A stretch of DNA of 12,532 bases from an uncultured euryarchaeote (GTDB taxonomy: Archaea; Thermoplasmatota; Poseidoniia; Poseidoniales; Thalassarchaeaceae): the NCBI GenBank assembly GCA_937897085.1, contig CALCOR010000113.1, positions 1-12,532 on the forward strand, in the 5' to 3' direction. Shown piece after piece: positions 1 to 12,532 of the stretch (position 1 is its first letter; each line of letters opens with the position of its first letter). The position numbers were made by a program, and so were the translations under genes. The notes under the pieces are model-generated. The model saw only the letters and a list, made by a program, of their open reading frames with translations, was not told the origin of the DNA and did no database searches.

Positions 1-1830
1 GTTATGTTACCCAGACCATCTTCGCTATGGGCAATCAACTCGAACCCGGTCATGTTCTCCCCGCTGCCCTCCTCGTAGAAGGATATCAGCAGATGCGCAG
101 ACTCTTTCGTGCGCCAGGAAATCTCATCGAGGCTGGCGTTGCCGTCGATAATCAGCAGTCCGCGGAACTCCTCATGTGTCACGCCGGTGTTGAATCGATC
201 AACAGTGACTATCCACTCTCCTTCGGGAAGATAGTCGAGCAGGGTGCCATTCTCGTCCGTGAAGCGATTGAACTCCATATCGCCGTCCACAGATTCAAAG
301 TTCACCTGTCTCTCCGCCACCGCTCCGCTGGAGAAGTTGGTCAGTTCGGCGTTCACCCGCCACATTGGCAAGAAGGGCATCTCAACGACCTCGCTCACGT
401 TGTTCACGCCAAGTGCCAGCACGATGTTTTCTACCGCGGCCAACTGGGTGTCGTAGGCGCTGCCGTTGGTCTCATTCTGCGGCTCTACGGCAAGCGTGTA
501 GACACCAGGTTCCACGTCCACGGTGATACGGCCATCGGTGAACTCGGCTGCGGTGACGTTCAGGCCAATCCCCAGACCACCAGATGAGATCGGTACGAAC
601 GCCAGGTCGATGTCGATGAGCGTACCGTTGCTGACGTTCGCATCGCCCTCATGGTCGATGAAGGCGGTGATGTCGACGGTGATGTTGTCCGGTTGCGCCA
701 TCAGCACTATGTTCTGAAGGTTCTCGCTGTTGTTGAGTGAGACGTTGATGTCCGATGATTCGAGATTGAACCAATCATCATCTATGCTCAGTGTCCAGAC
801 TCCCTCGAGCAGTTTGTTGCTGAAGCGGCCATCCGAGCCTATCCCCAGGAACCAGTGCACATCACGGGCGTGGTCGTAGGCGTGAATCTCCACCGGTTGG
901 TAAAAGGGGAAGCTGCTGGTGTACAACGTCAGGTTGCGATTGACGAACATCGTGCCAGAGATAAGCAGACCATCCTCGAGGAAGAGCACGATTGGATCCA
1001 TCCCTTCAAGCACCTCGAACTGGGTTCCGTTGGAAAGTTGGCTGGCAATCGAACGGGCGGTCATGTTGATGAGCGCATGTTCGGGGAGAAGCAACGAGAA
1101 GTTGCCCTCCATGTCTGTCGTCACCGACGTCTCGATGCCGCCCCACTGGAACTCAACCACGAGGTTGTGCGCCGGATCGAATGGGTCATCCTCCTTCTGG
1201 GTGTGCACGAGGATCGTGCCGTTCACCTCGACGCTGCGGACAAGCGTCCATTCCAGGCCGCTCAGGTCCTCGGTCACCTCGAACTCCTCCCAGAGCATCA
1301 GGCCATCTTCACCTGTGCTGTTGGCCACCCATCCACCCATGGGCAACTCGATGTGGTAGGAACTCGTGTTGTTGTCATAACGAGCATGTAGGTACTCATC
1401 ATCGAGCAACAACTCGTTGTGGAACCACACGTCGGAGTCACTCACTGGCTCTAACGTTCCTCCGCCCAAGTCTGTCCAGACAGTGAACTCGACATCATAG
1501 TGCGCCGGAACCGGGTTGGCGATGCTGATGAGTGAGAACTCCTGCGCATCGATGATGGCGGAGATGTGCGCGACTCCGTTGCATATGCCGTAGCCAGTAC
1601 CGTTCCACGGAACACACTCGTTGAATCCATCACCATCGTAGTCCATGCTCAACGAGTAGTTGCCATCAGGGAGAGGACCGAACCCGAACGAGCCGTTCTC
1701 ATCGGTGGTAATGATGCAAGGAGCGAAGAAAGTGTCCTCGCATGGCTCGATGGCAGGACTGTCTGGCAGGCTGTTGTCGAGGACCTCAAGTGGGGCATCG
1801 CTGATCATTGAGCCGTTCATCCACTTCAGG
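1..1830 (-). repeat. Tandem ~95-residue beta-sandwich modules in AglB tail
   Basis: A degenerate signature of the form D-x-x-G-x-F-x-x-x-L-P-x-G-x-Y recurs near AglB residues 1922 (ENGSFGFGPLPDGNYSL), 2030 (NNTSSYHIELPMGGW), 2120 (DMEGNFSLLLPEHAL), 2210 (SDGRFSNKLLEGVWTL), 2309 (TDGRITVDVEPGVYTL) and 2404 (ENGTLLDYLPEGEWIV). The spacing is about 90-108 residues. A related but separate copy is at about 1507 (DDDGHFEFRVPAGHIRV). The pattern matches the carboxypeptidase-regulatory-like / transthyretin-like fold class. These modules are known as stalks or adhesion modules in secreted proteins. The array is cut by the window edge, so the total number of copies is unknown. Confidence 0.7.
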
Positions 1831-4800
1831 TCTCCACTGATGTATGACCCGGGCATCAGCAGTTCGACTTCAGCTATCGGTTCTGTTTCGACATCGAGGG
1901 TCGTCGACAGTCGGGTGCGCTTGCCGTTACCGAGAATGACCTCGACTCGATAGGTACCGGGGAGAGCATCAACGAGATGAAACGATCCTGGCTCCACCAT
2001 TTCCCCGCTGAAGATGCCGACTCCGCTGAACAGTCCTGTGCCGTTAATCACTCCGTACGTCTCGAGTTGATCGTCACTGGTGTTGGTGATGAAAATTCCT
2101 GCACCGACAAACGTCTCCCTGAACATATGTGCAGTGAAGTCCAGAGTGCCATTGGCGGTGACCCTGCCACTGCCATCCAACTGATTGATGAACACGTACT
2201 TTGCCGGATCACTGCCTAGAATCAGACAGATCTCATCGTCCTCCGAAACGCTCTCGTTCACGCAGTTGGAGAGGTTCGCGGGCGGGTTGTCAAGCGTGCC
2301 TTCGAATGTGCCCGCACCCTTGAACTCGCCACTACCGGTGAAGGAGTGGTTGTGCAGGATCTGGCGTGTGAAATTGCCCGTGAAGTCAGAGACGAGCACA
2401 GTACCCTCAGATTGCATCAGGCCAATTCCGGTGAAGGTGACCTCTCCGGTGCCGCGGTAGGTTCGCGGATGCTCTTCATCGGATTCAACCGTTCCGTTGG
2501 TGGTCCAGATGTGCGGGAGTTCCTGATCAGTCCAGATCTCTGTTAAGATGAGTTCGTGAGAAATGAGTGGCTCATCGTCGAATGAGGCGTGGCCATCCCA
2601 GGCGACGCTGCCCGAGGCGCTCGATGCCTCGATGAGAAGTGTCTGCTCGACAACCTGCTCACCGTTCGAGTCTGCTTGCTCTCCGGTGACATTGAACTCC
2701 ATCTCGCCGATCCACTTCCCTCCTGAGACATTCGCCAGCAGCGCGGTGACCGGATTGACGGTTCGCGCATCTTCAGGCTGGTCTCCGAGTACGTCTGTGA
2801 GCCAAGTCTGCCAGGTCTGGAAGGTGTTCTGCGCCTGCGTTATCTTATCGATCGACGCCTGACGCGCCTCGGCCTCATCCCCAGTGAACCCGGTGAACGC
2901 TGTGACGCGAATGTGGCCTGCAGGGACCCTGAACTCGAAGTGACCGTCATCGTCCGCATCTACAGTGCCGATTGGAACCCAGTATTCACGCGGGTCGTCG
3001 TCGTTGGAACTCTCACCACTGTAGGCATCGCGTTCGATGAGGAGGCGCGCATTGGGCACAGTGGAGATGTCCCCCAGTTGGACTTCGCCCGACAGAGTCG
3101 CTCCAGAATAGTACTTCAGAATCTTGACCGCGGTGTTTGCATCATACCATGGCTTCGTTCCGTCGTCGTTGTTCTCGTCGTACCAGTTGGCGATGACGAA
3201 GTGGTTCATCATCGCCGCCGGAAGCGGGAAGGCGTACTGCAGTGACGAATTCGTCGTCCCGCGCATATCGAAGTGCTGCCCCGGCTGAGCTGGATCTGTG
3301 TTGAGCGCGTCATCGAGACCGAGCTGAGGCGAACCGTAGCCGATGTAGGTGCGAGCGACCATCGTGTCGAAGAATTCCGCCTCATGATCCACCCTGATAT
3401 CCAATAGTTGGATGATCTGTAGATCGTTCTGTGACTGGCTGCGCACGATGTCATCTTTGTACTCCGCTTCGTACTGCGCGGCCGACATGTCCACAGGATA
3501 ACCTGACGCGCCGCGCTGGGTGATGTAGGACGTCTCGAAGTATGTGTCCGGGTCCAGCCCAGAGAGAGTGGTCGGGGCGTAGAAGATGCCCGTGGGGTTG
3601 CCTCCGCTGGAGGAGTAGGCGCCCGCAATGGGGTAGAGGCGGTTGTCGACGGCGAAGTAGCGAATCTCGTGGTTGCGATCGATCATGTCTCCGGGCTTGC
3701 CGCTGGAATCGGCGACGGTGTAGATGATGTCATTGGACACCTCGTGGTTGAGCGTGACCAACTCATCGAGTGTGAGTGCGGTGGACAGGAAGGTGCGCCC
3801 CAGCGCCAGCCGTGCATTCTGCCGGTGAAGCGAGGTCGTGGCGTCGGCGAAGTCCTCGACGATATCCTTGGTGTACCAGTAGTCACCGATGATGTAGTGC
3901 GTCACTTCCTCCTTCACCTCGTCGTTGCGGTGTTTTGTTGAGTTGAACGATGCCATTGCGTCGGTCAGAACAGCGTGTTCTGTGCCATCCCACTCTCGAC
4001 TGTCGTAGACCCGGTAGGATTTCGTGACAACAGGCATGCCGATGTCGTTGAGGTGATATCCTTCTCCGAGGGAGACGCTGCCCGCTGTGTGGGTGATGGT
4101 GAACGAGTGATCGACGACAACCGATTCCTCATCAGCACCCAAGGTGGTCAGCAGCACGAATTCGTCGTACTGAGCGTCTGACAGCGCGCGATGCAAGGCG
4201 TTGTTGAACCCAGGTGTGAACCCGCCGTCGCCGCTGTAGCGCAGATCACCCTCGGCGAGGGTCAGTATCCACAGTGCCAGCAGATCCTCCTCGGACTGGG
4301 CGAGCAGCATGTTCCCTGAGTTCGGGATACCGCTCTGGAAGTTGTCCGCCACTGTCGGGTGCTTCCCCTGGGCGAGCGCTTGGAATCCATAATCCCACCA
4401 GGATACGAACGCCGGACGTTGCGAGAACGGCAATTCCTGATCCTGCTCTTCAAGCCACTGGTAGCCGTTGTTCCAATAGCGTCCATTGAAGCCTGAACCG
4501 AAAGACCCCATGTACCAACAACTGGTCGACTTGCTGGAGCCGCGACAACCGCCTGGCGGGTTGTAATGTGTGTCGTCGAACACGGAGAATCCGAATATCG
4601 GGTCAGCTGTGCGCAGCAGACGCGGTGTGATGTTGTAAATCGACGAATCGACATCCTTGGCTGCAGAGTTGCCCTGCGGTATGCCAGCATCCAGTCCGTA
4701 GGTGGCGTGCTGGCTGGCGAGTAGCATGAACACGAGCAGTATGGCCCCCACGGCGGGGTGCTTTTTCAGCGCCTTGGTACCAGAAGTAAATCGCGCCTTC

Positions 4801-7460
4801 GGGGTGCCGATTCCGAACCTGCGCCACGATTTGGCGATCTTGCTGCCTCCGGACAGGCCCCACAAGAGGGTAATCGACCACGCGCCCATGACCGCCACCG
4901 GAGGTGTCGCGTTGAACACGAACCGCCCTGCGCTCCAGGCCATGAAACCGGCAACGAGCATCCACACCGCCAGCACCAGTTTCACTCGGTCCTGCTTGCG
5001 CACACCCTGCCACAACGCCGTGATGCCTGCACCGATGGACAGCAACGCGACAAGCGGTCCGAACGAACCGAACAGCATACCGCGACTGGGAGCCTGTGCC
5101 TCAGCAATCGTCCCGAAGATCTTGTTCTTGCTGAAGTAGTAGCCACCGGTGAACAGCACCTCCCATGTCGAGGTATCCTGCAACACGTCGACGATGAACC
5201 AGCCAGCTGCGCCGATGGCCCCTAGCCCGAGCACGATGTACTGCGGGTTGATCTTGGATTCGTAACTGGCGAGGAACATCCAGATGAACAGCAGACAGGC
5301 GGCGAGCGCACCGAAGTACCACTCGATGGAGAAGTTCACTCCTCCTGCAATGATCAGCATGCCGATAATCGCCGGTCCGGCGATGACCAACCACGGCATA
5401 TCGCGACTGGCGGAGGCAATGTATCCCGTGACGAACGTGAATGCAAGGATGTAGAACATTGGCTGGAACCCGCTGGCATCCCACACGAGTTTCAACTCCA
5501 TGTGAGCGTAGAACGGGAGTGGCAGCAGGAAGGCACTGACCATCATCGCCAGTGCAGCGACCGTGAGTGGCATGCTGTCACGACGCCGGAACATGTTCAG
5601 CAGAACCTGAGTGAAGAAGGCTGCATACAGGATGGCGAGACCATAGACGAATCCCTTCCATCCAAGTGCAACAGTGGCGAACGCGAATCCGGCGAGAATC
5701 GCATTGGATATCGCAGTCGGACGTTGCTCAATAGCCGCCTTCACTCCCTTGAGGAAGTAAGAGGGGCGCCACGAGGATTTGGCTACGAGCTTGTCGCTGC
5801 CTGCCGCCTCGACCGCCTTCAACCAGAAGTAGAACCCGAGCGTCAGGAACAGGATGACGAACGCGTCGTGGTCCGCCATCGCGAAGGTACTCTTGGAGAC
5901 GTGGCCCGGCATCAGGGCAATCAGCCAAGCGGCCACTGCACCGGTGCCCTTGCTGAAGAATCGCCGACCGATGGACGCCATCGGCAACACAGTGAGAGAG
6001 CCGTAGATGACGGGCAGAGCGGCCACAGACCACCAAACCGCATCTTCTGCCGGCACACCGAGAATCGGGGCAAGCAGTATTCCTCCGACAGCCATGCTCC
6101 AAGCGAACAGCGGAGGCCGCGGATTGATCGCCCCTAGAGGATAGGAGCGGTCCATGTCAATCAGGAAGTGGCTATGCTGGGCGAGGATGTACTCCACTGC
6201 GCGCATCATGTACCACGGGTCAGAACCACCTGTCAGGTCCCACTCATGGGTACCGCTGGCGTTCATCGCCGGAGTGACGCTCCAGACTGTGCGGATGATC
6301 AGCGCGACCAACAAGGCGGAAGACACTGTGATGCCGTACCAGTGTGCGGACCACCAGAGACGGGCCGGGCCGGGTGAGCGCCGCGGTGATGTGTCACCGA
6401 GTTTGCCCATGACGCCGAGAATGATGGCGACCGAGTTCACCCAGAAGAAGATGAAGAACCAGACGAACAGGCCATTGCTGCCTCCGAAGTATGAATGCCA
6501 GTCAGCGGATCCGGTCAGGATGAGGCCCTTCTCCTGCAATCCCGAGAGAGAGAACAGCAGCCAATTCGCGAGTAAGAGCGTCGCTCGCGTCTTCCAGCGC
6601 TCGGAGATGAAGAACATCGCCAGCAACGAGAGGAGACCGGTGAACAGAGCCCACCAGATGCTCATGTGGTCGCCAGCCAGTCGCGCACCTTCATCGGATG
6701 AGAAGAAGGAGGCGAATACGGTGACGTGGGCAAGCATCCAGAGCGCGAATCCGGCGTAGAGCGGCCATGTAGAGCGGGGATCCAAGCGTTCAGGGAGGTT
6801 GACGAACCAGCTGCCGCGACCAGCGGGCAGCAGTCTGCCGCGCAGGGCGAACGTGGCGAGCGCACCGGCCAGCATGCTGACCATCCAGGCGTTGAAGAAC
6901 AGGAAGCCGACCTCCTGTCGGTGACTATCCAGATGTCCCCAGTAGGAACTGTCAGCAACATCGAGAGCCGGCAACCAAGCGCCGCCCACCCACTGTGAGC
7001 CGTCGAATGTCGGTGCGGCCACGGCTGCGAACGACAGCGCGGCATAGAACCCCATAACTGTCCAAGTGAGGATGTTCGCCTCCTCGAAACGACCCGATCG
7101 GTCAAACAGGTGCACACCGAGTGCGAGCACGACGAAAAGCAGACCGAGAAGCGTGTCGCCGATGACCAACTGGGGTATGGCTGCCGCCAACACCAGCGGC
7201 GCGAAGATGAACAGCGTGACATGCGAAGGCTTGACTCCGATGCCGGAGAAGATGATGCGGGGGGTAACCCCGAGCAGGGCTCCGATCGTCAGTAGAACGA
7301 ACGGAAGCACCTGAGTCATCACGGCTTCTTGGCTGTCATACGTCACGCCCAGCGGGTACATCGTCATCGTCAACAGCAGTAGCACGACCCCGGCTAACGG
7401 GGCCGCGAACAGACTGCGCACGGTGCTGACACCCGAGGACGTGCTGTGGTTGTCGTCCAT
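1..7460 (-). CDS. aglB: Giant oligosaccharyltransferase AglB/STT3 (3' end outside window)
   Basis: AglB transfers a lipid-linked glycan to Asn in N-X-S/T sequons on the outer face of the membrane. The frame is open for 2,486 codons from ATG at 7460 to the left edge, so the C-terminus is missing. Seen: residues 1-370 form an extra module with about 10 hydrophobic segments. The STT3 core begins near 375, with GGSDPWYMMR (Asp414) as the first acidic motif in loop 1 and DHD at 530-532 as the second. The last core membrane segment lies near 900-915. The soluble catalytic region carries SWWDYGF (WWDYG at 1021-1025), the family's sequon-recognition motif. From about 1470 onward the protein is extracellular beta-sandwich-like modules. 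Known archaeal AglBs are usually about 800-1,000 residues, so this is more than twice that length. The start is supported by GAGGG 6 nt upstream. Assignment to AglB is very secure; the roles of the two extensions are unknown. Confidence 0.95.
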   Translation of the reverse strand, partial: MDDNHSTSSGVSTVRSLFAAPLAGVVLLLLTMTMYPLGVTYDSQEAVMTQVLPFVLLTIGALLGVTPRIIFSGIGVKPSHVTLFIFAPLVLAAAIPQLVIGDTLLGLLFVVLALGVHLFDRSGRFEEANILTWTVMGFYAALSFAAVAAPTFDGSQWVGGAWLPALDVADSSYWGHLDSHRQEVGFLFFNAWMVSMLAGALATFALRGRLLPAGRGSWFVNLPERLDPRSTWPLYAGFALWMLAHVTVFASFFSSDEGARLAGDHMSIWWALFTGLLSLLAMFFISERWKTRATLLLANWLLFSLSGLQEKGLILTGSADWHSYFGGSNGLFVWFFIFFWVNSVAIILGVMGKLGDTSPRRSPGPARLWWSAHWYGITVSSALLVALIIRTVWSVTPAMNASGTHEWDLTGGSDPWYMMRAVEYILAQHSHFLIDMDRSYPLGAINPRPPLFAWSMAVGGILLAPILGVPAEDAVWWSVAALPVIYGSLTVLPMASIGRRFFSKGTGAVAAWLIALMPGHVSKSTFAMADHDAFVILFLTLGFYFWLKAVEAAGSDKLVAKSSWRPSYFLKGVKAAIEQRPTAISNAILAGFAFATVALGWKGFVYGLAILYAAFFTQVLLNMFRRRDSMPLTVAALAMMVSAFLLPLPFYAHMELKLVWDASGFQPMFYILAFTFVTGYIASASRDMPWLVIAGPAIIGMLIIAGGVNFSIEWYFGALAACLLFIWMFLASYESKINPQYIVLGLGAIGAAGWFIVDVLQDTSTWEVLFTGGYYFSKNKIFGTIAEAQAPSRGMLFGSFGPLVALLSIGAGITALWQGVRKQDRVKLVLAVWMLVAGFMAWSAGRFVFNATPPVAVMGAWSITLLWGLSGGSKIAKSWRRFGIGTPKARFTSGTKALKKHPAVGAILLVFMLLASQHATYGLDAGIPQGNSAAKDVDSSIYNITPRLLRTADPIFGFSVFDDTHYNPPGGCRGSSKSTSCWYMGSFGSGFNGRYWNNGYQWLEEQDQELPFSQRPAFVSWWDYGFQALAQGKHPTVADNFQSGIPNSGNMLLAQSEEDLLALWILTLAEGDLRYSGDGGFTPGFNNALHRALSDAQYDEFVLLTTLGADEESVVVDHSFTITHTAGSVSLGEGYHLNDIGMPVVTKSYRVYDSREWDGTEHAVLTDAMASFNSTKHRNDEVKEEVTHYIIGDYWYTKDIVEDFADATTSLHRQNARLALGRTFLSTALTLDELVTLNHEVSNDIIYTVADSSGKPGDMIDRNHEIRYFAVDNRLYPIAGAYSSSGGNPTGIFYAPTTLSGLDPDTYFETSYITQRGASGYPVDMSAAQYEAEYKDDIVRSQSQNDLQIIQLLDIRVDHEAEFFDTMVARTYIGYGSPQLGLDDALNTDPAQPGQHFDMRGTTNSSLQYAFPLPAAMMNHFVIANWYDENNDDGTKPWYDANTAVKILKYYSGATLSGEVQLGDISTVPNARLLIERDAYSGESSNDDDPREYWVPIGTVDADDDGHFEFRVPAGHIRVTAFTGFTGDEAEARQASIDKITQAQNTFQTWQTWLTDVLGDQPEDARTVNPVTALLANVSGGKWIGEMEFNVTGEQADSNGEQVVEQTLLIEASSASGSVAWDGHASFDDEPLISHELILTEIWTDQELPHIWTTNGTVESDEEHPRTYRGTGEVTFTGIGLMQSEGTVLVSDFTGNFTRQILHNHSFTGSGEFKGAGTFEGTLDNPPANLSNCVNESVSEDDEICLILGSDPAKYVFINQLDGSGRVTANGTLDFTAHMFRETFVGAGIFITNTSDDQLETYGVINGTGLFSGVGIFSGEMVEPGSFHLVDALPGTYRVEVILGNGKRTRLSTTLDVETEPIAEVELLMPGSYISGDLKWMNGSMISDAPLEVLDNSLPDSPAIEPCEDTFFAPCIITTDENGSFGFGPLPDGNYSLSMDYDGDGFNECVPWNGTGYGICNGVAHISAIIDAQEFSLISIANPVPAHYDVEFTVWTDLGGGTLEPVSDSDVWFHNELLLDDEYLHARYDNNTSSYHIELPMGGWVANSTGEDGLMLWEEFEVTEDLSGLEWTLVRSVEVNGTILVHTQKEDDPFDPAHNLVVEFQWGGIETSVTTDMEGNFSLLLPEHALINMTARSIASQLSNGTQFEVLEGMDPIVLFLEDGLLISGTMFVNRNLTLYTSSFPFYQPVEIHAYDHARDVHWFLGIGSDGRFSNKLLEGVWTLSIDDDWFNLESSDINVSLNNSENLQNIVLMAQPDNITVDITAFIDHEGDANVSNGTLIDIDLAFVPISSGGLGIGLNVTAAEFTDGRITVDVEPGVYTLAVEPQNETNGSAYDTQLAAVENIVLALGVNNVSEVVEMPFLPMWRVNAELTNFSSGAVAERQVNFESVDGDMEFNRFTDENGTLLDYLPEGEWIVTVDRFNTGVTHEEFRGLLIIDGNASLDEISWRTKESAHLLISFYEEGSGENMTGFELIAHSEDGLGNI
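2000..2470 (-). repeat. Short Gly-x-Gly-x-Phe beta repeats in AglB tail
   Basis: AglB residues of about 1665-1820 contain recurring short units such as GTGEVTFTGIG, GSGEFKGAGTFEG, GSGRVTANGTLDF, VGAGIF and GTGLFSGVGIFSG. Alternating small and hydrophobic residues with paired glycines suggest a beta-solenoid or stacked-hairpin segment. A disulfide-capable loop (C1733 and C1745) lies inside it. The repeats are degenerate in sequence, and the unit length varies around 10-13 residues. The fold is inferred, not proven. Confidence 0.55.
6335..7460 (-). other. Extra N-terminal polytopic membrane module of AglB
   Basis: This stretch encodes AglB residues 1 to about 375. I count roughly ten hydrophobic segments, for example around FAAPLAGVVLLLLTM, VTLFIFAPLVLAA, LLGLLFVVLALGVHLF, VSMLAGALATFAL, WWALFTGLLSLLAMFFI and LFVWFFIFFWVNSVAIILGV. 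In STT3/AglB proteins the first acidic motif normally follows directly after the first membrane helix, near residue 40-50; here it is at 414. The module is in the same uninterrupted frame as the core, so this is a fusion rather than a neighbouring gene. I do not recognise its family. It could assist the glycan donor, anchor a complex, or be a degenerate duplicated transporter-like segment; none of these is shown by the sequence. Confidence 0.75.
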
Positions 7461-7466
7461 CGTTTT

Positions 7467-7471
7467 CCCTC
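7467..7471 (-). promoter_or_regulatory. Shine-Dalgarno-like site of aglB
   Basis: On the minus strand GAGGG lies 6 nt before the ATG at 7460, a normal spacing. It decides the start: the downstream reading (MDDNHSTSSG) runs directly into the first hydrophobic segment. A clear site of this kind is not seen at purD or at the plus-strand gene at 9757, so aglB looks more strongly leadered than its neighbours. Confidence 0.6.
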
Positions 7472-7477
7472 TTGAAA

Positions 7478-7507
7478 GACAGTCGTCAGACTGTCGGCGT
7501 CGCCGCC
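7478..7507 (-). promoter_or_regulatory. Paired hairpins in the aglB leader
   Basis: Positions 7478-7495 form a perfect inverted repeat, GACAGTC-4 nt-GACTGTC on the minus strand (7-bp stem, 4-nt loop). Immediately upstream on that strand, 7496-7507 is GGCG-4 nt-CGCC. Both sit between the possible TATA box and the start codon, 17 nt or more before the ATG. They could be a 5'-UTR structure, a protein-binding palindrome near the transcription start, or part of the purD 3' end. No U-run long enough for a convincing archaeal terminator follows. Confidence 0.45.
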
Positions 7508-7520
7508 ACCTAGCATTGTG

Positions 7521-7538
7521 GTTTAACGGTTTTTACAC
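7521..7538 (-). promoter_or_regulatory. Possible archaeal promoter for aglB
   Basis: The minus strand reads GTGTAAAAACCGTTAAAC, the most A/T-rich patch in the purD-aglB gap. It resembles a purine-rich BRE followed by a weak TATA-like element. A start about 25 nt downstream would fall near 7497-7500, just before the hairpin. The match is weak, and read-through from purD is equally possible. Confidence 0.3.
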
Positions 7539-7631
7539 GCGGGCGCGAGGTGCATCGCCTCAGTGCCACGAATACACCTAGGATTCTCAGGCTTTGGCGA
7601 ATATGCTCGTCAGTGGCATGGCGGACTCAGA

Positions 7632-8900
7632 TCATAGGGCACGGTGTCCAATGTCCCTGCGGTAATGCGAGCCTTCCAACTCGATACCAGCCAGCAGGTC
7701 ATAGGCGGCATCGCGCGCCCCCTCGAGGCTGGAGGATATCCCCGTGCTGGCGAGCACTCGGCCCCCTGATGCCACCAGCCGGCCCTGTTCATCGAGGCCT
7801 GTGCCAGCATGATGCACCAGCGCGCTGCTACCGGCGTCGACAAGCACCTCAGAAGCGAACGTGATCGGCAGCCCTGTTCGCGGAGGACCGGGGTAACCCT
7901 GCGCTGCGAGCACCACTGTCAGCGCATGGGATTCGGAGAATTCTGGAATCGTGTCAGCCACCCTCCCCTCAGACACCGCGAGCAACAGTTGGTAGAGGTC
8001 GCTGGAGATCAACGGGATGGTGACCTGCGTCTCGGGGTCACCGAACCTGACGTTGTACTCAATCACGTAGGGGTCTTCCTGTTCATCGATCATCAGCCCG
8101 ACATAGAGACAACCACGATAGGGGGTCTTCTGGGATGAGAGCCACTTGTGCATCGGCTCCACGATTCGTTCGAACACTTTGTCGCGCACTGCATCCGTAA
8201 CCACCGGTGCAGGAGCATACGCGCCCATGCCACCAGTGTTGGGACCAGTGTCACCCTCTCCCACCCGTTTGTGGTCCTGGCTGGCGGGCAACGCAACCCA
8301 TCCCGATTCATCGAGCATCACGAGCATGCTCGCTTCCTCTCCTGAAAGGAATTCCTCCAGCAGCACGAACGAGTCTGATTCGATGGCTGATTCGATGGCC
8401 TGACGGGCGTCGTCGCGCACATCGGTCACCGTCACCCCCTTGCCCCCGGCGAGAACGTCACGCTTCACCACCCATGGAGGAGCGAACCTGTCCAGAGCGT
8501 CTTCTATCTGGTCGGCATCATCGATGACCACCACGCCCCCAGTGGGTACTCCGTTCTGCTGCATCACCTGCTTGGCGTGCAACTTGCTCCCCTCGAGTTC
8601 CGCACCGGCGGAATGGGGGCCGAAGCAAGGGATGTGCTTCGTTCTCAGCATATCGGCAAGGCCGGCGACCAGAGGCCCTTCGGGACCGACCACGACTAGG
8701 TCGCAGTCGAGTCCCTCGGCCAACCCCACCAGTCCTTCGACATCGCTGTCCGGGAGCGCATGGTTAGTCGCCACGGCAGCGGTGCCAGCGTTGCCCGGAG
8801 CGACGTGCACCTCGGATACCGTCGGTGATGCGGCGAGGCCGATGGCCAATGCGTGCTCACGCCCCCCCCCTCCGACGACGAGCACGATTGCGCCTGACAT
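7632..8900 (-). CDS. purD: Phosphoribosylamine-glycine ligase (GAR synthetase)
   Basis: PurD joins 5-phosphoribosylamine and glycine using ATP to make glycinamide ribonucleotide, the second step of de novo purine synthesis, in the cytoplasm. The 422 residues match the usual length of about 420-430. Seen: N-terminal Gly-rich loop VLVVGGGGREHALA (6-19), VVVGPEGPLVAGLAD (69-83), FGPHSAGAELEGSK (93-106), the ATP-grasp signature SQDHKRVGEGDTGPNTGGMG (207-226), metal/ATP-site EYNVRFGDPETQ (281-292) and a C-terminal HYRRDIGHRAL. ATG at 8900 sits right at the family N-terminus; no clear Shine-Dalgarno site precedes it. One oddity is the segment usually read as KADGLAAGKG, which here is KRDVLAGGKG (146-155). 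It lies 83 bp downstream of carS and 171 bp upstream of aglB on the same strand. Confidence 0.97.
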   Translation of the reverse strand: MSGAIVLVVGGGGREHALAIGLAASPTVSEVHVAPGNAGTAAVATNHALPDSDVEGLVGLAEGLDCDLVVVGPEGPLVAGLADMLRTKHIPCFGPHSAGAELEGSKLHAKQVMQQNGVPTGGVVVIDDADQIEDALDRFAPPWVVKRDVLAGGKGVTVTDVRDDARQAIESAIESDSFVLLEEFLSGEEASMLVMLDESGWVALPASQDHKRVGEGDTGPNTGGMGAYAPAPVVTDAVRDKVFERIVEPMHKWLSSQKTPYRGCLYVGLMIDEQEDPYVIEYNVRFGDPETQVTIPLISSDLYQLLLAVSEGRVADTIPEFSESHALTVVLAAQGYPGPPRTGLPITFASEVLVDAGSSALVHHAGTGLDEQGRLVASGGRVLASTGISSSLEGARDAAYDLLAGIELEGSHYRRDIGHRAL

Positions 8901-8983
8901 CGGAGCATGTGGCGCGCGCTGACGTGATAATCATGCGCCCGAAGCCGCCACCGTTCCGGAACAGGAGCCTGAGCAACAGAGAA
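8901..8983. other. carS-purD spacer with a 10-bp palindrome
   Basis: This 83-bp gap holds a perfect palindrome, GTTCCGGAAC (8953-8962). On the minus strand it also has an A/T patch, GATTATC, about 31-37 nt before the purD ATG. The patch could be a weak TATA element for a nearly leaderless purD transcript. Neither signal is strong, and carS-purD co-transcription is plausible. No small gene is evident here. Confidence 0.3.
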
Positions 8984-9670
8984 TCAGTATGGGACCGATT
9001 TCAGACCGAGCTTGTACCCGACGAGATTGAACAGCCTGTGCACGATTGGGGTGGCTATCAGGGTGGCGAGCATCGGCAGGATGAACTCTGTCTGTCCGTG
9101 CAGCGCCTGAGAGAAGAACAACAGCCCGAACAGATACAGTAGGATGGCGAATGGCAGGGTGTCCAGCAGCGGTGCCTTGCTGCTCACATCACCCTCTCGC
9201 TTCATGCCGCGGCGCCGTTTGATGAACGAGCCGAGGGCATCTCCGGTCATCGTCCCGAATCCAAGCACACAACCGAGCACGAATGCCGCTCCATACGCCC
9301 CCCCGACCCAGAACCACGCATCCTCTGACACACCGGCCAGAAGATCGACTGTCGGGCGGTCACCCGCGAGTATCCGGCCTACGCTCAGATGGTGCTGCAG
9401 CATCGTCAGCAGGCCTGCGGTCATGCTCCCACCGATGAACCCGTTCCACGTCTTGCCGTCGCCGAGCAGCCTGTTGCCATCGGAATGCAACCTACCGGCG
9501 TCGATCGGCTTCACCGGCATCCCTGTCAGCGCAGGGATCCACTTCCCCCACAGCATGGCAAAAGTGTTGGCGAGGTAGCCGGCCATGTAGAGCCAGGCCA
9601 GTGTCACCACGACCAGCAGGAACTGATTCGCTCCGTCATAGGAAACGACCTCCTCGAAGATGCCGGACAT
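8984..9670 (-). CDS. carS: CDP-archaeol synthase
   Basis: CarS transfers CMP from CTP to 2,3-di-O-geranylgeranylglyceryl phosphate. The product, CDP-archaeol, is the activated precursor of archaeal polar lipids; the enzyme sits in the membrane. The 228 residues carry the family signatures: ANTFAMLWGKWIP (34-46), PIDAGRLHSDGNRLLGDGKT (55-74), WNGFIGG (75-81) and GDALGSFIKRRRGMKREGD (143-161), followed by APLLDTLPF (166-174). About five hydrophobic segments are visible (17-39, 78-90, 118-140, 172-188, 194-212). The length is slightly above the typical 170-200 because of an N-terminal extension before the first helix and a polar insert at about 92-116. ATG at 9670 is the first possible in-frame start after the divergent intergenic region. 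A GGAGGT lies only 1 nt before it, unusually close. It is divergent to the gene at 9757. Confidence 0.95.
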   Translation of the reverse strand: MSGIFEEVVSYDGANQFLLVVVTLAWLYMAGYLANTFAMLWGKWIPALTGMPVKPIDAGRLHSDGNRLLGDGKTWNGFIGGSMTAGLLTMLQHHLSVGRILAGDRPTVDLLAGVSEDAWFWVGGAYGAAFVLGCVLGFGTMTGDALGSFIKRRRGMKREGDVSSKAPLLDTLPFAILLYLFGLLFFSQALHGQTEFILPMLATLIATPIVHRLFNLVGYKLGLKSVPY

Positions 9671-9756
9671 GACCTCCGTCGGGCGCGAGCGGCGGTTGAA
9701 CCTTCGTACATCGTGGGGGCGGCGAATTGATGGAGTGAGCCGGCATCCCCAGCGCG
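9671..9756. other. Divergent intergenic region carS / surface protein gene
   Basis: This 86-bp segment must hold the 5' signals of carS (leftward) and of the gene at 9757 (rightward). It is GC-rich with no convincing TATA box on either strand. The only purine-rich ribosome-site-like sequence is GGAGGT (minus strand, 9672-9677), with a 1-nt spacer to the carS ATG. The short ATG at 9730 is followed after one codon by TGA, so it cannot extend the right-hand gene. Confidence 0.4.
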
Positions 9757-11484
9757 ATGAACCCGAAGACCAGCCCCCTGATCATCTGCCTGCTGATGCT
9801 CTCAATGCTCTGTCTACCCGCCCCTCCAGCGGTGGCCACCGGACCCCCCGGTGGAAGCGATGCGATCAACATCACGGAAGACACGACCTGGGACGAAGCG
9901 GGCAGTATCGACCAGCAACTGACAATCTCCGCGGGCGCGACGCTCACCATCTCGAGCGACATCGATGTCGGACCAGCCACCAACATCGTGGTCTCGGGCA
10001 CGCTCGACCTCGACGGCGGTTCACTCGTGGCTACCGACCCACCCTCTGATGTACAATGGTGGAACGCAGGAGGTGCTTCCACCCTCTGGCTGCCGACGGA
10101 CCAAGTCAGCGGCAGCGGCGCGATCATCATCGTCAGCGCGGCTGGGTTCAACCTGTCTGGATTCACGGTAGCATGGGGAGACGGGGCTTCCGAGCAGATG
10201 GACGGAGAGCAGCACGAGATCACCCTCAACTCGTTCCCAAATGACGGGGACTGGCTCACGTTCGAGATGGAGATCGGCAGTTGGGGTGAACTGGTGCTCG
10301 ACAGGATCGAGGTCAGGACCGCATCCACCATCCCGTTCGAAGCGGCGGATCTCGACGGGTCAGGTTGGGTGTTGCGTGGGGATTTCGGATTCTCTCTCGG
10401 CGTCGCCGACGGGGGGTCCCTCAGCGCCACCGATGCGGAGATTATGGGAGCTGATGTCCTAATCAGCGGCACCGCGGTAGGACAGAACAGTTGGTTCAAG
10501 CGCTCGGGTCCAGTGAATGTGCAGGGGGCACAGGCCTCACTGACTTGGAACGGAGGGGGTTTCAACAGCACACTCGATGACCATGACGTGCGGGCGGACG
10601 GTGTGGCCGCGCTCTCATTCACAGGTGTGACCGACAGTGGAGGATTCGTCGACCTGTGGGAGAGACAGATTCCAGCACAGGTTCTCCATTTCCCTGGAAG
10701 TGGGGCTCAATTCACTTTGAATGGGGTCGGACCGGATGCACGTACCATCCCCGGCATCAGCACGGCGGAGGGCATATCCAACGTACCCGGAGATGATGGC
10801 CCGACCACTCGTGTCGTGGAGATAGGTCAGTCCGACGGCACGGTCTGGACCGAGAGCGCCACGATTGACAGCATCTCCTGGTTCACCGCATGGGGGACGT
10901 ACACGAGTGATGGGATTCCACTGACTCACTCATCCGACGTGGTAGTCGATTTCCCGCTGCCATCGGTATCCATCTCGCAGGTAGAGATCGAGGATGCAGC
11001 ACCCACAATCGGAAGGAGGGCGTCGGTCACGGTCACCCTGGCGAACACTGGTGAAGTCCCAGCCAACGTTCCCATCGAGTGCTATGATGGAGCCGACCGG
11101 GCGGACATCTCCCCTACGTACCCGAGCGCCACGGTCGCGGCTGGCTCGGATGCGGACATCGACCTGAAGTGGGGTCATACAGGAACCGGTAATTCCACCC
11201 TGACATGCTCTCCGATGTTGCCCACGCAACTCACCCGCGACGGTGCCTTCGGTGGCGGCTCAGGTGATTCGGCCGTGGTCGTTTGGGAGGTGCAGCTGGA
11301 AACGGGGATGGACCCGATCGTGATCGCACTGATCGTCGCACTCGTCGTCGGCGTCCTGCTAGTTGCCGGGTTCGCCAGCATGCAGGCTCGCGAGAGCATG
11401 GTGAAGGCCGAGGAACCTGATGAGGACATCGAACTAGTCGATCTCGATGATGAGCTGGAAGAACTCGATGATGACGACGACTGA
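9757..11484 (+). CDS. Secreted surface protein with C-terminal membrane anchor and acidic tail
   Basis: I do not recognise a named family. The 575 residues start with a signal peptide (about 1-28: Lys4, hydrophobic IICLLMLSMLCL, then APPAVATG). Next is a beta-rich region with strand-turn repeats such as ATLTISSDI and GTLDLDGGSL, suggestive of a beta-helix-like fold. Residues of about 400-505 resemble a CARDB/Ig-like module (ASVTVTLANTGEVPANVPIE, then TVAAGSDADIDLKW). A single membrane segment follows at about 519-539 (VIALIVALVVGVLLVAGF). A short basic/polar linker leads to a cytoplasmic tail with 17 acidic residues in the last 24, ending in DDDDD. Four N-X-S/T sequons (NIT, NLS, NST, NST) make it a plausible AglB substrate. 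ATG at 9757 is the first in-frame start after a stop at 9736. It converges on the gene at 11485. Function unknown; an S-layer-associated or adhesin role is conjecture. Confidence 0.88.
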   Translation: MNPKTSPLIICLLMLSMLCLPAPPAVATGPPGGSDAINITEDTTWDEAGSIDQQLTISAGATLTISSDIDVGPATNIVVSGTLDLDGGSLVATDPPSDVQWWNAGGASTLWLPTDQVSGSGAIIIVSAAGFNLSGFTVAWGDGASEQMDGEQHEITLNSFPNDGDWLTFEMEIGSWGELVLDRIEVRTASTIPFEAADLDGSGWVLRGDFGFSLGVADGGSLSATDAEIMGADVLISGTAVGQNSWFKRSGPVNVQGAQASLTWNGGGFNSTLDDHDVRADGVAALSFTGVTDSGGFVDLWERQIPAQVLHFPGSGAQFTLNGVGPDARTIPGISTAEGISNVPGDDGPTTRVVEIGQSDGTVWTESATIDSISWFTAWGTYTSDGIPLTHSSDVVVDFPLPSVSISQVEIEDAAPTIGRRASVTVTLANTGEVPANVPIECYDGADRADISPTYPSATVAAGSDADIDLKWGHTGTGNSTLTCSPMLPTQLTRDGAFGGGSGDSAVVVWEVQLETGMDPIVIALIVALVVGVLLVAGFASMQARESMVKAEEPDEDIELVDLDDELEELDDDDD

Positions 11485-11487
11485 TCA
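11482..11487. other. Abutting convergent stop codons in TGATCA
   Basis: The plus-strand gene ends with TGA at 11482-11484 and the minus-strand gene ends with TGA occupying 11485-11487. Together they form the palindrome TGATCA, with no intergenic base. Any 3' untranslated region or terminator of either gene must therefore lie inside the other gene's coding sequence. Confidence 0.95.
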
Positions 11488-12532
11488 GCAAGCATCAGTC
11501 GGCTTGTATGGCTCACCTGTTTGGGGGCCCTCTCCATCGGGGTCCGATGTGTCACGCTCCTCGTTGTAGTCCCACCAGAACTGAAAACCCTGATCGGCAT
11601 TGGCAGTGAACACATCTCCGAACGGAGATTCATGAGTTACCGTAATCTCGATGATGTAGCACCCATCACCATCGTAGAAATCTCCTCGCGGGATGTAGTT
11701 CTGCATTTCATTGAAGGCACCCAACTTCTCGCCATCGCCGTCGAGATCGAGCCACGCGCTCTCGACCAAACCACCGCCACCAGACCAAGTTGCAGTTGAG
11801 CCGTCAACCGTGACGGTCGGGAAGACAAAGACTTCTGAACCCTCGAAGTAAATCGATGCTTGGATGGTGTAGTCCGATTCGACGTGGAGCATCATGCCGG
11901 TTGTGTTGCCGGTCACCGGATCCTCCACGCCCGCGCCGACTCGCAGCGAAGCGCCGAGGTGGTCGAGGCCGTTCTTTGGACACTCTCCTGTTTCCTCATC
12001 ACAGGTGGTTGCCTCCGTTAGAGTGGCAAGTTCTCCGTCAACCGCGGTGATGGTGCGGTCCATGATTTCCGGAGATATCGGGTAAGCGCTGGCGGCCGAG
12101 CCGCCCTGCCTCACCTCAATGGTATAGTCGATATCGGTCAAATCGTTGGCGGCCGCACGGGAATTCCCTTGGTAGAAATCGCTGAACGGAATCTCGTACC
12201 ATGAGAGTTTGTTCTTCGGTGTGAACGAACCGTTGTACGCCTCGACCTCTCCATAGGTGATCGTCACCTCTAGCGGATCGTCAGGCGTACCCCCAAGCAT
12301 CGGGGTGCCGATGAACATCTGCACTCGCAGCACATCGTCCGACTCATCGACCTCGACGGCGGACACTGAAATCGAATACTCCCCCAGACTGAACCCCATA
12401 GCCATCTGAGCGGCGATGAACACAATCAGCAGAACAACGAGGCCTGCAGCGATGCCTTTCTTGGCATTCGATGAGAGAAAGGACGATTCTTGACCAGTAC
12501 TCCTTGACGAATCCGCGCGAGCCAGCAGTCCA
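11485..12532 (-). CDS. Membrane-anchored extracellular protein (5' end outside window)
   Basis: The family is not recognised. The frame is open from the right edge to TGA at 11485, 348 residues visible. A GTG at 12421-12423 could be read as a start, but it lies inside the membrane helix and the frame continues upstream, so the true start is beyond the window. Seen: a polar Ser-rich N-terminal part (RADSSRSTGQESS), then KKG followed by a hydrophobic segment IAAGLVVLLIVFIAAQMAM, then about 300 residues that are acidic, beta-rich and probably outside the cell. There is a CDEETGEC cysteine pair, two DGDG-containing loops (LDLDGDGEKL and FYDGDGC) that could bind calcium, two sequons (NGS, NTT) and a C-terminal Cys. 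KKG before the helix recalls class III (pilin-like) signal sequences, but the leader is long, so a plain N-terminal anchor is equally likely. Confidence 0.85.
   Translation of the reverse strand, partial: GLLARADSSRSTGQESSFLSSNAKKGIAAGLVVLLIVFIAAQMAMGFSLGEYSISVSAVEVDESDDVLRVQMFIGTPMLGGTPDDPLEVTITYGEVEAYNGSFTPKNKLSWYEIPFSDFYQGNSRAAANDLTDIDYTIEVRQGGSAASAYPISPEIMDRTITAVDGELATLTEATTCDEETGECPKNGLDHLGASLRVGAGVEDPVTGNTTGMMLHVESDYTIQASIYFEGSEVFVFPTVTVDGSTATWSGGGGLVESAWLDLDGDGEKLGAFNEMQNYIPRGDFYDGDGCYIIEITVTHESPFGDVFTANADQGFQFWWDYNEERDTSDPDGEGPQTGEPYKPTDAC

Follow-up and report, generated by a model that had tools for sequence, protein, structure and literature searches.

A giant AglB oligosaccharyltransferase with a sequon-dense, predicted extracytoplasmic tail in Poseidoniales and many other Thermoplasmatota

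The usual picture of a single-subunit oligosaccharyltransferase (OST) is that of a compact enzyme modifying other proteins. A 12,532-nucleotide stretch of DNA from an uncultured euryarchaeote of the Thalassarchaeaceae (Thermoplasmatota, Poseidoniia, Poseidoniales; contig CALCOR010000113.1 of assembly GCA_937897085.1, positions 1 to 12,532, here called the window) encodes an OST of the AglB/STT3 type whose C-terminal tail is packed with N-X-S/T sequons (X not Pro), the acceptor motif for N-glycosylation. This sequon-dense tail and its sharp beginning are real and far more widely spread than first reported. The reading we favour, and consider rather probable, is that the tail is a selected acceptor array on an extracytoplasmic stalk anchored in the membrane at both ends, and that AglB itself glycosylates it into a glycan-coated arch or brush. 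The aglB gene (positions 3 to 7460, minus strand, as are all aglB features given below) is incomplete: the window starts at base 1 of its contig, from a genome that is 85% complete, and the gene overruns that base, which truncates the tail. The 2486 codons present compare with about 3200 amino acids in full-length relatives, which extend some 760 residues past the cut, to a transmembrane (TM) helix.

In the part of the tail that is present (residues 1577–2486, positions 3 to 2732), 35 sequons were counted, where shuffled sequences of the same composition give a mean of 8.74 (standard deviation 2.7, z score 9.7) and none of 5000 shuffles reaches 35. The original prediction had counted 34, and the overlapping NNT/NTS pair at N2030/N2031 may account for the difference; its counts of 3 sequons in the preceding extracytoplasmic catalytic (WWDYG) part (residues 926–1576, positions 2733 to 4685, 4.7 expected) and of 4 in a 575-residue secreted neighbour (9757–11484, 2.7 expected) were reproduced exactly. 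The first 925 residues hold 4 sequons against 1.8 expected. Asparagines lie inside sequons in 35 of 59 cases in the tail but in 3 of 32 in the preceding part (Fisher p = 2e-6). An unbiased change-point scan over residues 926–2486, which also sets the boundary between the two parts, places the best break at residue 1576, and that break is equalled by none of 1000 random placements and by 1 of 2000 permutations of labels among the asparagines.

The same pattern characterizes the AglB proteins of the order. Residues 1–1576 find matches in 301 of 318 genomes of Poseidoniales, and among the matches listed, many frames of about 3,100–3,300 codons occur, in both families, along with shorter ones. The comparisons below use 111 full-length relatives (at least 3100 amino acids) among the 120 listed of 164 matches, 9 shorter ones having been dropped; their lineage is Thermoplasmatota, Poseidoniia, Poseidoniales, and their names include Candidatus Thalassarchaeaceae and uncultured marine group II. 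Tail sequons exceed shuffled expectation in all 111 (z minimum 2.7, median 7.9, maximum 14.1), at a median density of 2.72 per 100 residues, and the median ratio of observed to expected sequons is 2.65 in the tail, 0.64 in the WWDYG part and 1.21 in the TM part. In their alignment the mean number of sequons per 100 residues rises from 0.04 (columns 1501–1575) to 2.90 (1576–1650); the catalytic part is itself unevenly sparse, with means of 1.48 at 1126–1200 and 1.08 at 1426–1500. Together, the shuffles, the relatives and the scan rule out composition or chance as the source of the tail sequons. One of the shorter AglB frames of the order (L140, from the single-contig genome G182) is interrupted; a split gene was considered and rejected, and the interruption is taken as an artefact because its two pieces overlap where bases are undetermined.

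The excess is confined to the spacing that an OST reads. Around tail asparagines of the 111 relatives and the window, S/T is 2.5 times as frequent as expected at +2 and 0.7–1.1 times at the other offsets from −4 to +5; aspartates of the same tails, serving as a control, give 1.04 at +2, and in the catalytic part S/T is depleted at +2 of Asn (0.71). Proline occupies +1 in 28 of 4988 N-x-S/T triplets (0.56%) compared with 225 of 6097 N-x-other triplets (3.7%). Outside the order, 23 tails repeat the contrast, with S/T at +2 enriched 2.69-fold for Asn and 1.05-fold for Asp. Read from sequence, S/T enrichment limited to +2 together with exclusion of proline is a signature of OST specificity and of selection for acceptor sites. 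This bears directly on an alternative in which N-G turns of beta-sandwich domains yield sequons as a structural by-product, free of any glycosylation. NGT and NGS are indeed the commonest sequons, G standing at X in 1089 of 4960; yet in the relatives' tails S/T follows NG in 56% of cases and DG in only 15%, which, with the aspartate control and the selective lack of proline at +1, speaks against the by-product; it is rejected as barely credible.

Conservation points the same way. Compared with the window tail, sequon asparagines are kept more often than other asparagines and than aspartates at every distance: 0.99 against 0.88 and 0.84 in the 2 relatives above 80% tail identity, 0.69 against 0.27 and 0.54 in the 11 at 50–80%, 0.48 against 0.27 and 0.34 in the 21 at 35–50%, and 0.41 against 0.18 and 0.32 in the 77 at 25–35%. 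Individual sites nevertheless turn over, the pairwise shared fraction being 0.99 at identities of at least 90% and 0.29 at 20–30%, while tail counts across the 111 relatives stay between 28 and 65 (median 45). Density is thus held more firmly than position, a few near-invariant sites excepted: 428 alignment columns carry a sequon in at least one relative and 5 columns in at least 80% of them. The best kept in the window are N2278 (NGT, positions 621 to 629), present in 111 of 111 relatives, N1806 (NGT, 2037 to 2045) in 106 and N1590 (NVT, 2685 to 2693) in 104. In a random 15% of ordered pairs, lost sequons were accompanied by a new one no more than 12 columns away more often than in the comparison (0.18 vs 0.05 at 70–90% identity, 0.24 vs 0.17 at 40–70%), which is at most suggestive of local compensation, since shifts in the alignment or variable loops could produce the same picture.

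Giant tails, mostly enriched in sequons, recur across many but not all Thermoplasmatota. An STT3 match was found in 39 of 46 genomes drawn from outside the order. Twenty-eight loci from outside the order were taken with long frames first, hence not as a random sample, and gave 27 usable frames; G182 and G383 were dropped from this comparison, as the frames taken lacked a WWD motif. Tails exceed 1000 residues in 20 of the 27, and all 20 surpass their shuffles, 17 of them at z of at least 3, counting a tail (G338) whose z of 3.3 is unreliable since an earlier motif was mistaken for its anchor; that of G318 is weakly enriched (z 2.4). A C-terminal TM helix closes 18 of the 20, the others being G353, cut by a contig end, and G350. 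The strongest tails of this set are more extreme than that of the window: 91 sequons in 1317 residues in G346 (L124:2928-10760, plus strand, family f11; z 16.5) and 92 in 1317 in G353 (L121:1-7806, minus strand, family f16; z 14.6). A scan of named genomes, covering the best 80 of 460 confirmed relatives and offering no test of other phyla, returned 79 AglB open reading frames (ORFs), 64 of them complete at the 3' end. All 40 tails of at least 700 residues lie above expectation (34 at z of at least 2, 30 at z of at least 3), and 39 close with a TM helix that lies no more than 40 residues from the C-terminus; there were also 17 short tails of 150–700 residues (z 2.0–7.6) and 7 of fewer than 150. 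The scan includes a metagenome-assembled genome of Aciduliprofundum sp. (L271), a genus with cultured members, whose 2075-residue AglB has 24 tail sequons where 13.7 are expected. The titles of these 80 name Thermoplasmatota groups, unspecific archaeal or euryarchaeal taxa and one 'Methanomicrobia archaeon', and this set probably shares some species with the long-frame loci.

As to topology, the tail is predicted to be extracytoplasmic and anchored at both ends because the relatives run on to a C-terminal TM helix; the closest among the matches listed (P0001, 3245 amino acids, 93% identical over the whole query) terminates with a hydrophobic helix and, after it, basic residues. A cytoplasmic tail was considered and is disfavoured, since the sole extra hydrophobic stretch of P0001 (2701–2719) appears, by an equivalence drawn by eye, within high-confidence beta strands of a homologous model. 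Predicted models, with the C-terminal half of the tail modelled on the relative L157, portray a string of Ig/CNA-B/transthyretin-like beta-sandwich domains and a C-terminal TM helix, as in SlaB-like surface layer (S-layer) proteins. Foldseek and VIA return only generic Ig/CNA-B-type folds at low whole-length TM-scores, too unspecific to assign a particular function. The tail of the G346 protein matches Pfam NOMO_5th above its cut-off and the EMC7 beta-sandwich family just below it, possibly reflecting a link to eukaryotic membrane-protein biogenesis factors of the endoplasmic reticulum or else a shared fold class.

The giant protein is a variant of AglB and not a new kind of system. Its PF02516 (STT3 membrane domain) match scores 56.9 bits (cut-off 24.5), its WWDYG region (residues 996–1062) matches 3vu0 (E = 1.1e-5) and 3vgp (E = 1.7e-5), and it reaches 189.8 bits with NCBIfam TIGR04154 (archaeo_STT3), below the curated cut-off of 450. 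It shares the STT3 membrane domain, an acidic motif and the WWDYG region with the archaeal AglB of PDB entries 3waj and 5gmy (P0001, E = 7.8e-11); unlike that 875-residue chain, the full-length relatives of about 3,200 residues have two additions, a membrane block at the N-terminus and a stalk of about 1,650 residues that is rich in sequons and closed by a C-terminal TM helix. The motifs are SDPWY (residues 413–417, positions 6210 to 6224), whose equivalent stretch in P0001 aligns with NDPWY of 3waj, DHD (530–532, 5865 to 5873) and the conserved TIAE (784–787, 5100 to 5111; fitting TIxE), which we take to be the first acidic, second acidic and TIxE motifs, and WWDYG (1021–1025, 4386 to 4400). 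The extra N-terminal block (residues 1–365, positions 6366 to 7460), recognized from its TM helices and the alignment of P0001, lies ahead of the region alignable with known AglB; it is polytopic, and its sole match is to SPC25, below the cut-off (E = 0.0023, 18.2 vs 24.3 bits). WWDYG stands at residue 1021 here and near 520–820 in AglB frames from outside the order. Directly upstream of aglB lies a purD-like gene (window 7632–8900, minus strand); judged by eye, the ORF upstream of aglB in L140 (G182) starts similarly, which suggests that the neighbourhood is an old synteny.

Known glycoproteins show what such a tail could carry; the papers named here by PMC number are cited from excerpts. Haloferax AglB is reported in one excerpt to be N-glycosylated itself, as is STT3 (PMC8241124). 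This enzyme, of Haloferax volcanii, is an AglB that is also a substrate of AglB-dependent N-glycosylation; it has a tabulated value of 2 in that excerpt, taken as sites, whereas the 910 residues of tail encoded in the window hold 35 sequons. The S-layer protein SlaA of Sulfolobus has 31 predicted sites in 1424 residues, of which 27 were confirmed as glycans (excerpts of PMC10903991; SlaA/SlaB structure 8qox), giving high occupancy of dense archaeal sequons a precedent; the window tail, unlike SlaA/SlaB, is part of the transferase. For Marine Group II, an excerpt lists an oligosaccharyltransferase gene, possibly the same AglB, among highly transcribed genes, under lipid metabolism (PMC9723583). 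Searches of open-licence PMC papers listed no description of giant AglB tails or of their sequons.

We propose that the beta-sandwich string would start at the catalytic domain and return to the membrane via its C-terminal helix, and that AglB would glycosylate this string either in cis or on AglB molecules nearby, so that the enzyme itself would stand at the cell surface as a glycan-coated arch or brush. A sequon-packed outside tail common to many related archaea makes such self-glycosylation probable. One STT3 match per genome in 8 of 8 genomes checked also suggests that any tail glycosylation is probably by AglB, in cis or trans. Glycosyltransferase 2 genes were found in 4 of 4 genomes, at 6–10 matches per genome. 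The likely gains would be protection of a very long, thin stalk from proteases and solvent, and a contribution to the glycocalyx. The prediction that the tail is N-glycosylated, possibly by its own catalytic domain, is thus partly borne out: none of the three outcomes named as refuting it was obtained, as the count surpasses shuffles, sequon positions are better conserved than other asparagines, and the predicted topology places the tail outside the cytoplasm. Self-modification is favoured by the single STT3 and by the Haloferax precedent (excerpt of PMC8241124), and the predicted brush fits a density conserved through turnover of positions. Several observations pull the other way. Tail glycans in these organisms are inferred from sequence, and the coat role rests on analogy. 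In a wider draw, 6 of 51 matching genomes have two STT3 matches, so AglB as sole agent need not hold everywhere, and the PF00953 priming enzyme was not found in five of six genomes searched (G000, G105, G182, G241 and G346, but found in G361), PF00953 being one type of priming enzyme that the control genomes of Haloferax and Methanosarcina also lack. Only 17 of the 39 matching outside-order genomes have a frame of at least 2000 codons, short frames being either real or cut by contig ends. Some long tails show weak enrichment or none: those of G377 (z 1.1), G327 (z 1.5), L266 (z 0.7) and L302 (z 0.5). Finally, in the model similar shares of sequon asparagines (21 of 35) and of the remaining tail asparagines (15 of 24) fall in loops, so that it gives no independent sign of accessibility.

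The most serious alternative, possible though on balance unlikely, is ordinary exposure, in which every large exported domain gains sequons and the tail glycans only help the domain to fold and stay stable, unconnected with what the enzyme does. It was weighed against 1,266 ORFs of at least 120 amino acids in 1,780,684 bases of G105 (a genome of about 2.1 Mb, 88% complete). With classes set by hydropathy only and AglB counted in the polytopic class, observed/expected sequons are 0.96 for ORFs without TM helices, 1.54 for signal-bearing or anchored ones, 1.27 for others with 1–3 TM helices and 1.39 for polytopic ones; N-x-S/T is widely used in the exported proteins of this lineage, AglB being an extreme and not the sole case. 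By an approximate formula for z, the whole AglB protein ranks second (7.9) behind a 3005-residue protein that has a transglutaminase core and bears 100 sequons (L202:3170-12184, minus strand; 11.4). That protein and a 601-residue one with 50 sequons, or 8.3 per 100 residues (L215:11990-13792, plus strand), rival the tail; the latter, a candidate surface glycoprotein, has two hydropathy helices, one near its C-terminus, and no Pfam family up to E 0.1. Against ordinary exposure, AglB provides the strongest window of up to 900 residues among all 1,266 ORFs (33 vs 8.6, z 9.1; the next 8.7 and 7.6), its tail is enriched some 3- to 4-fold (49 vs 15.9 in G105, 35 vs 8.7 in the window) where signal-bearing or anchored ORFs reach 1.5, and the tail is fused to an OST in giant forms that recur across the phylum.

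Two further proposals would give the tail a more specialized task. The original prediction offered a built-in sensor of glycan supply, whose occupancy would alter AglB stability or activity. The near-invariant N2278, N1806 and N1590 could suit it, as could a possible regulatory role proposed for the glycan of Haloferax AglB (excerpt of PMC8241124), but most sites turn over, contrary to what a specific switch predicts, and neither the window protein nor P0001 has a signalling domain by Pfam; the sensor thus found no specific support and appears improbable, and the glycan-coated arch is favoured over it. NOMO of the BOS complex (9c7v, 9c7u), which we take to be an array of transthyretin-like beta-sandwich domains with a membrane anchor, invites comparison with a translocon accessory, its stalk receiving nascent chains beside the translocon and its glycans keeping that stalk soluble. 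The domain type is common to both, and the window tail gives a weak or generic match (9c7v, E = 0.005); but no OST is attached to NOMO, the same fold class is matched equally or better by teneurin, SlaB, pilins and others, and P0001 yields no NOMO row up to E 0.1; this function seems very improbable indeed.

Beyond the favoured glycan-coated arch lies a bolder possibility, which we hold only tentatively: the Thermoplasmatota OST might double as an abundant, major surface glycoprotein, bearing dozens of N-glycans on its double-anchored arch, such that synthesis and scaffold of the glycocalyx would be one polypeptide. If so, coat density would rise automatically with the level of the OST, and the arrangement would suit members lacking an S-layer. 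By an excerpt of PMC5155288, these make up most Thermoplasmatales, outnumbering those with an S-layer though AglB is present; their lack of an S-layer is disputed, because excerpts of PMC3750248 report AglB homologues, putative S-layer genes and imaged surface layers for acid-mine relatives.

In a planktonic marine order and in many further members of the phylum, an OST thus appears to be fused to a dense array of sites that it could itself modify. Should these sites be occupied, self-glycosylation by an OST would be directly testable, the tails would be strong natural acceptors, and the arch would be a candidate surface coat for archaea of which some lack an S-layer.

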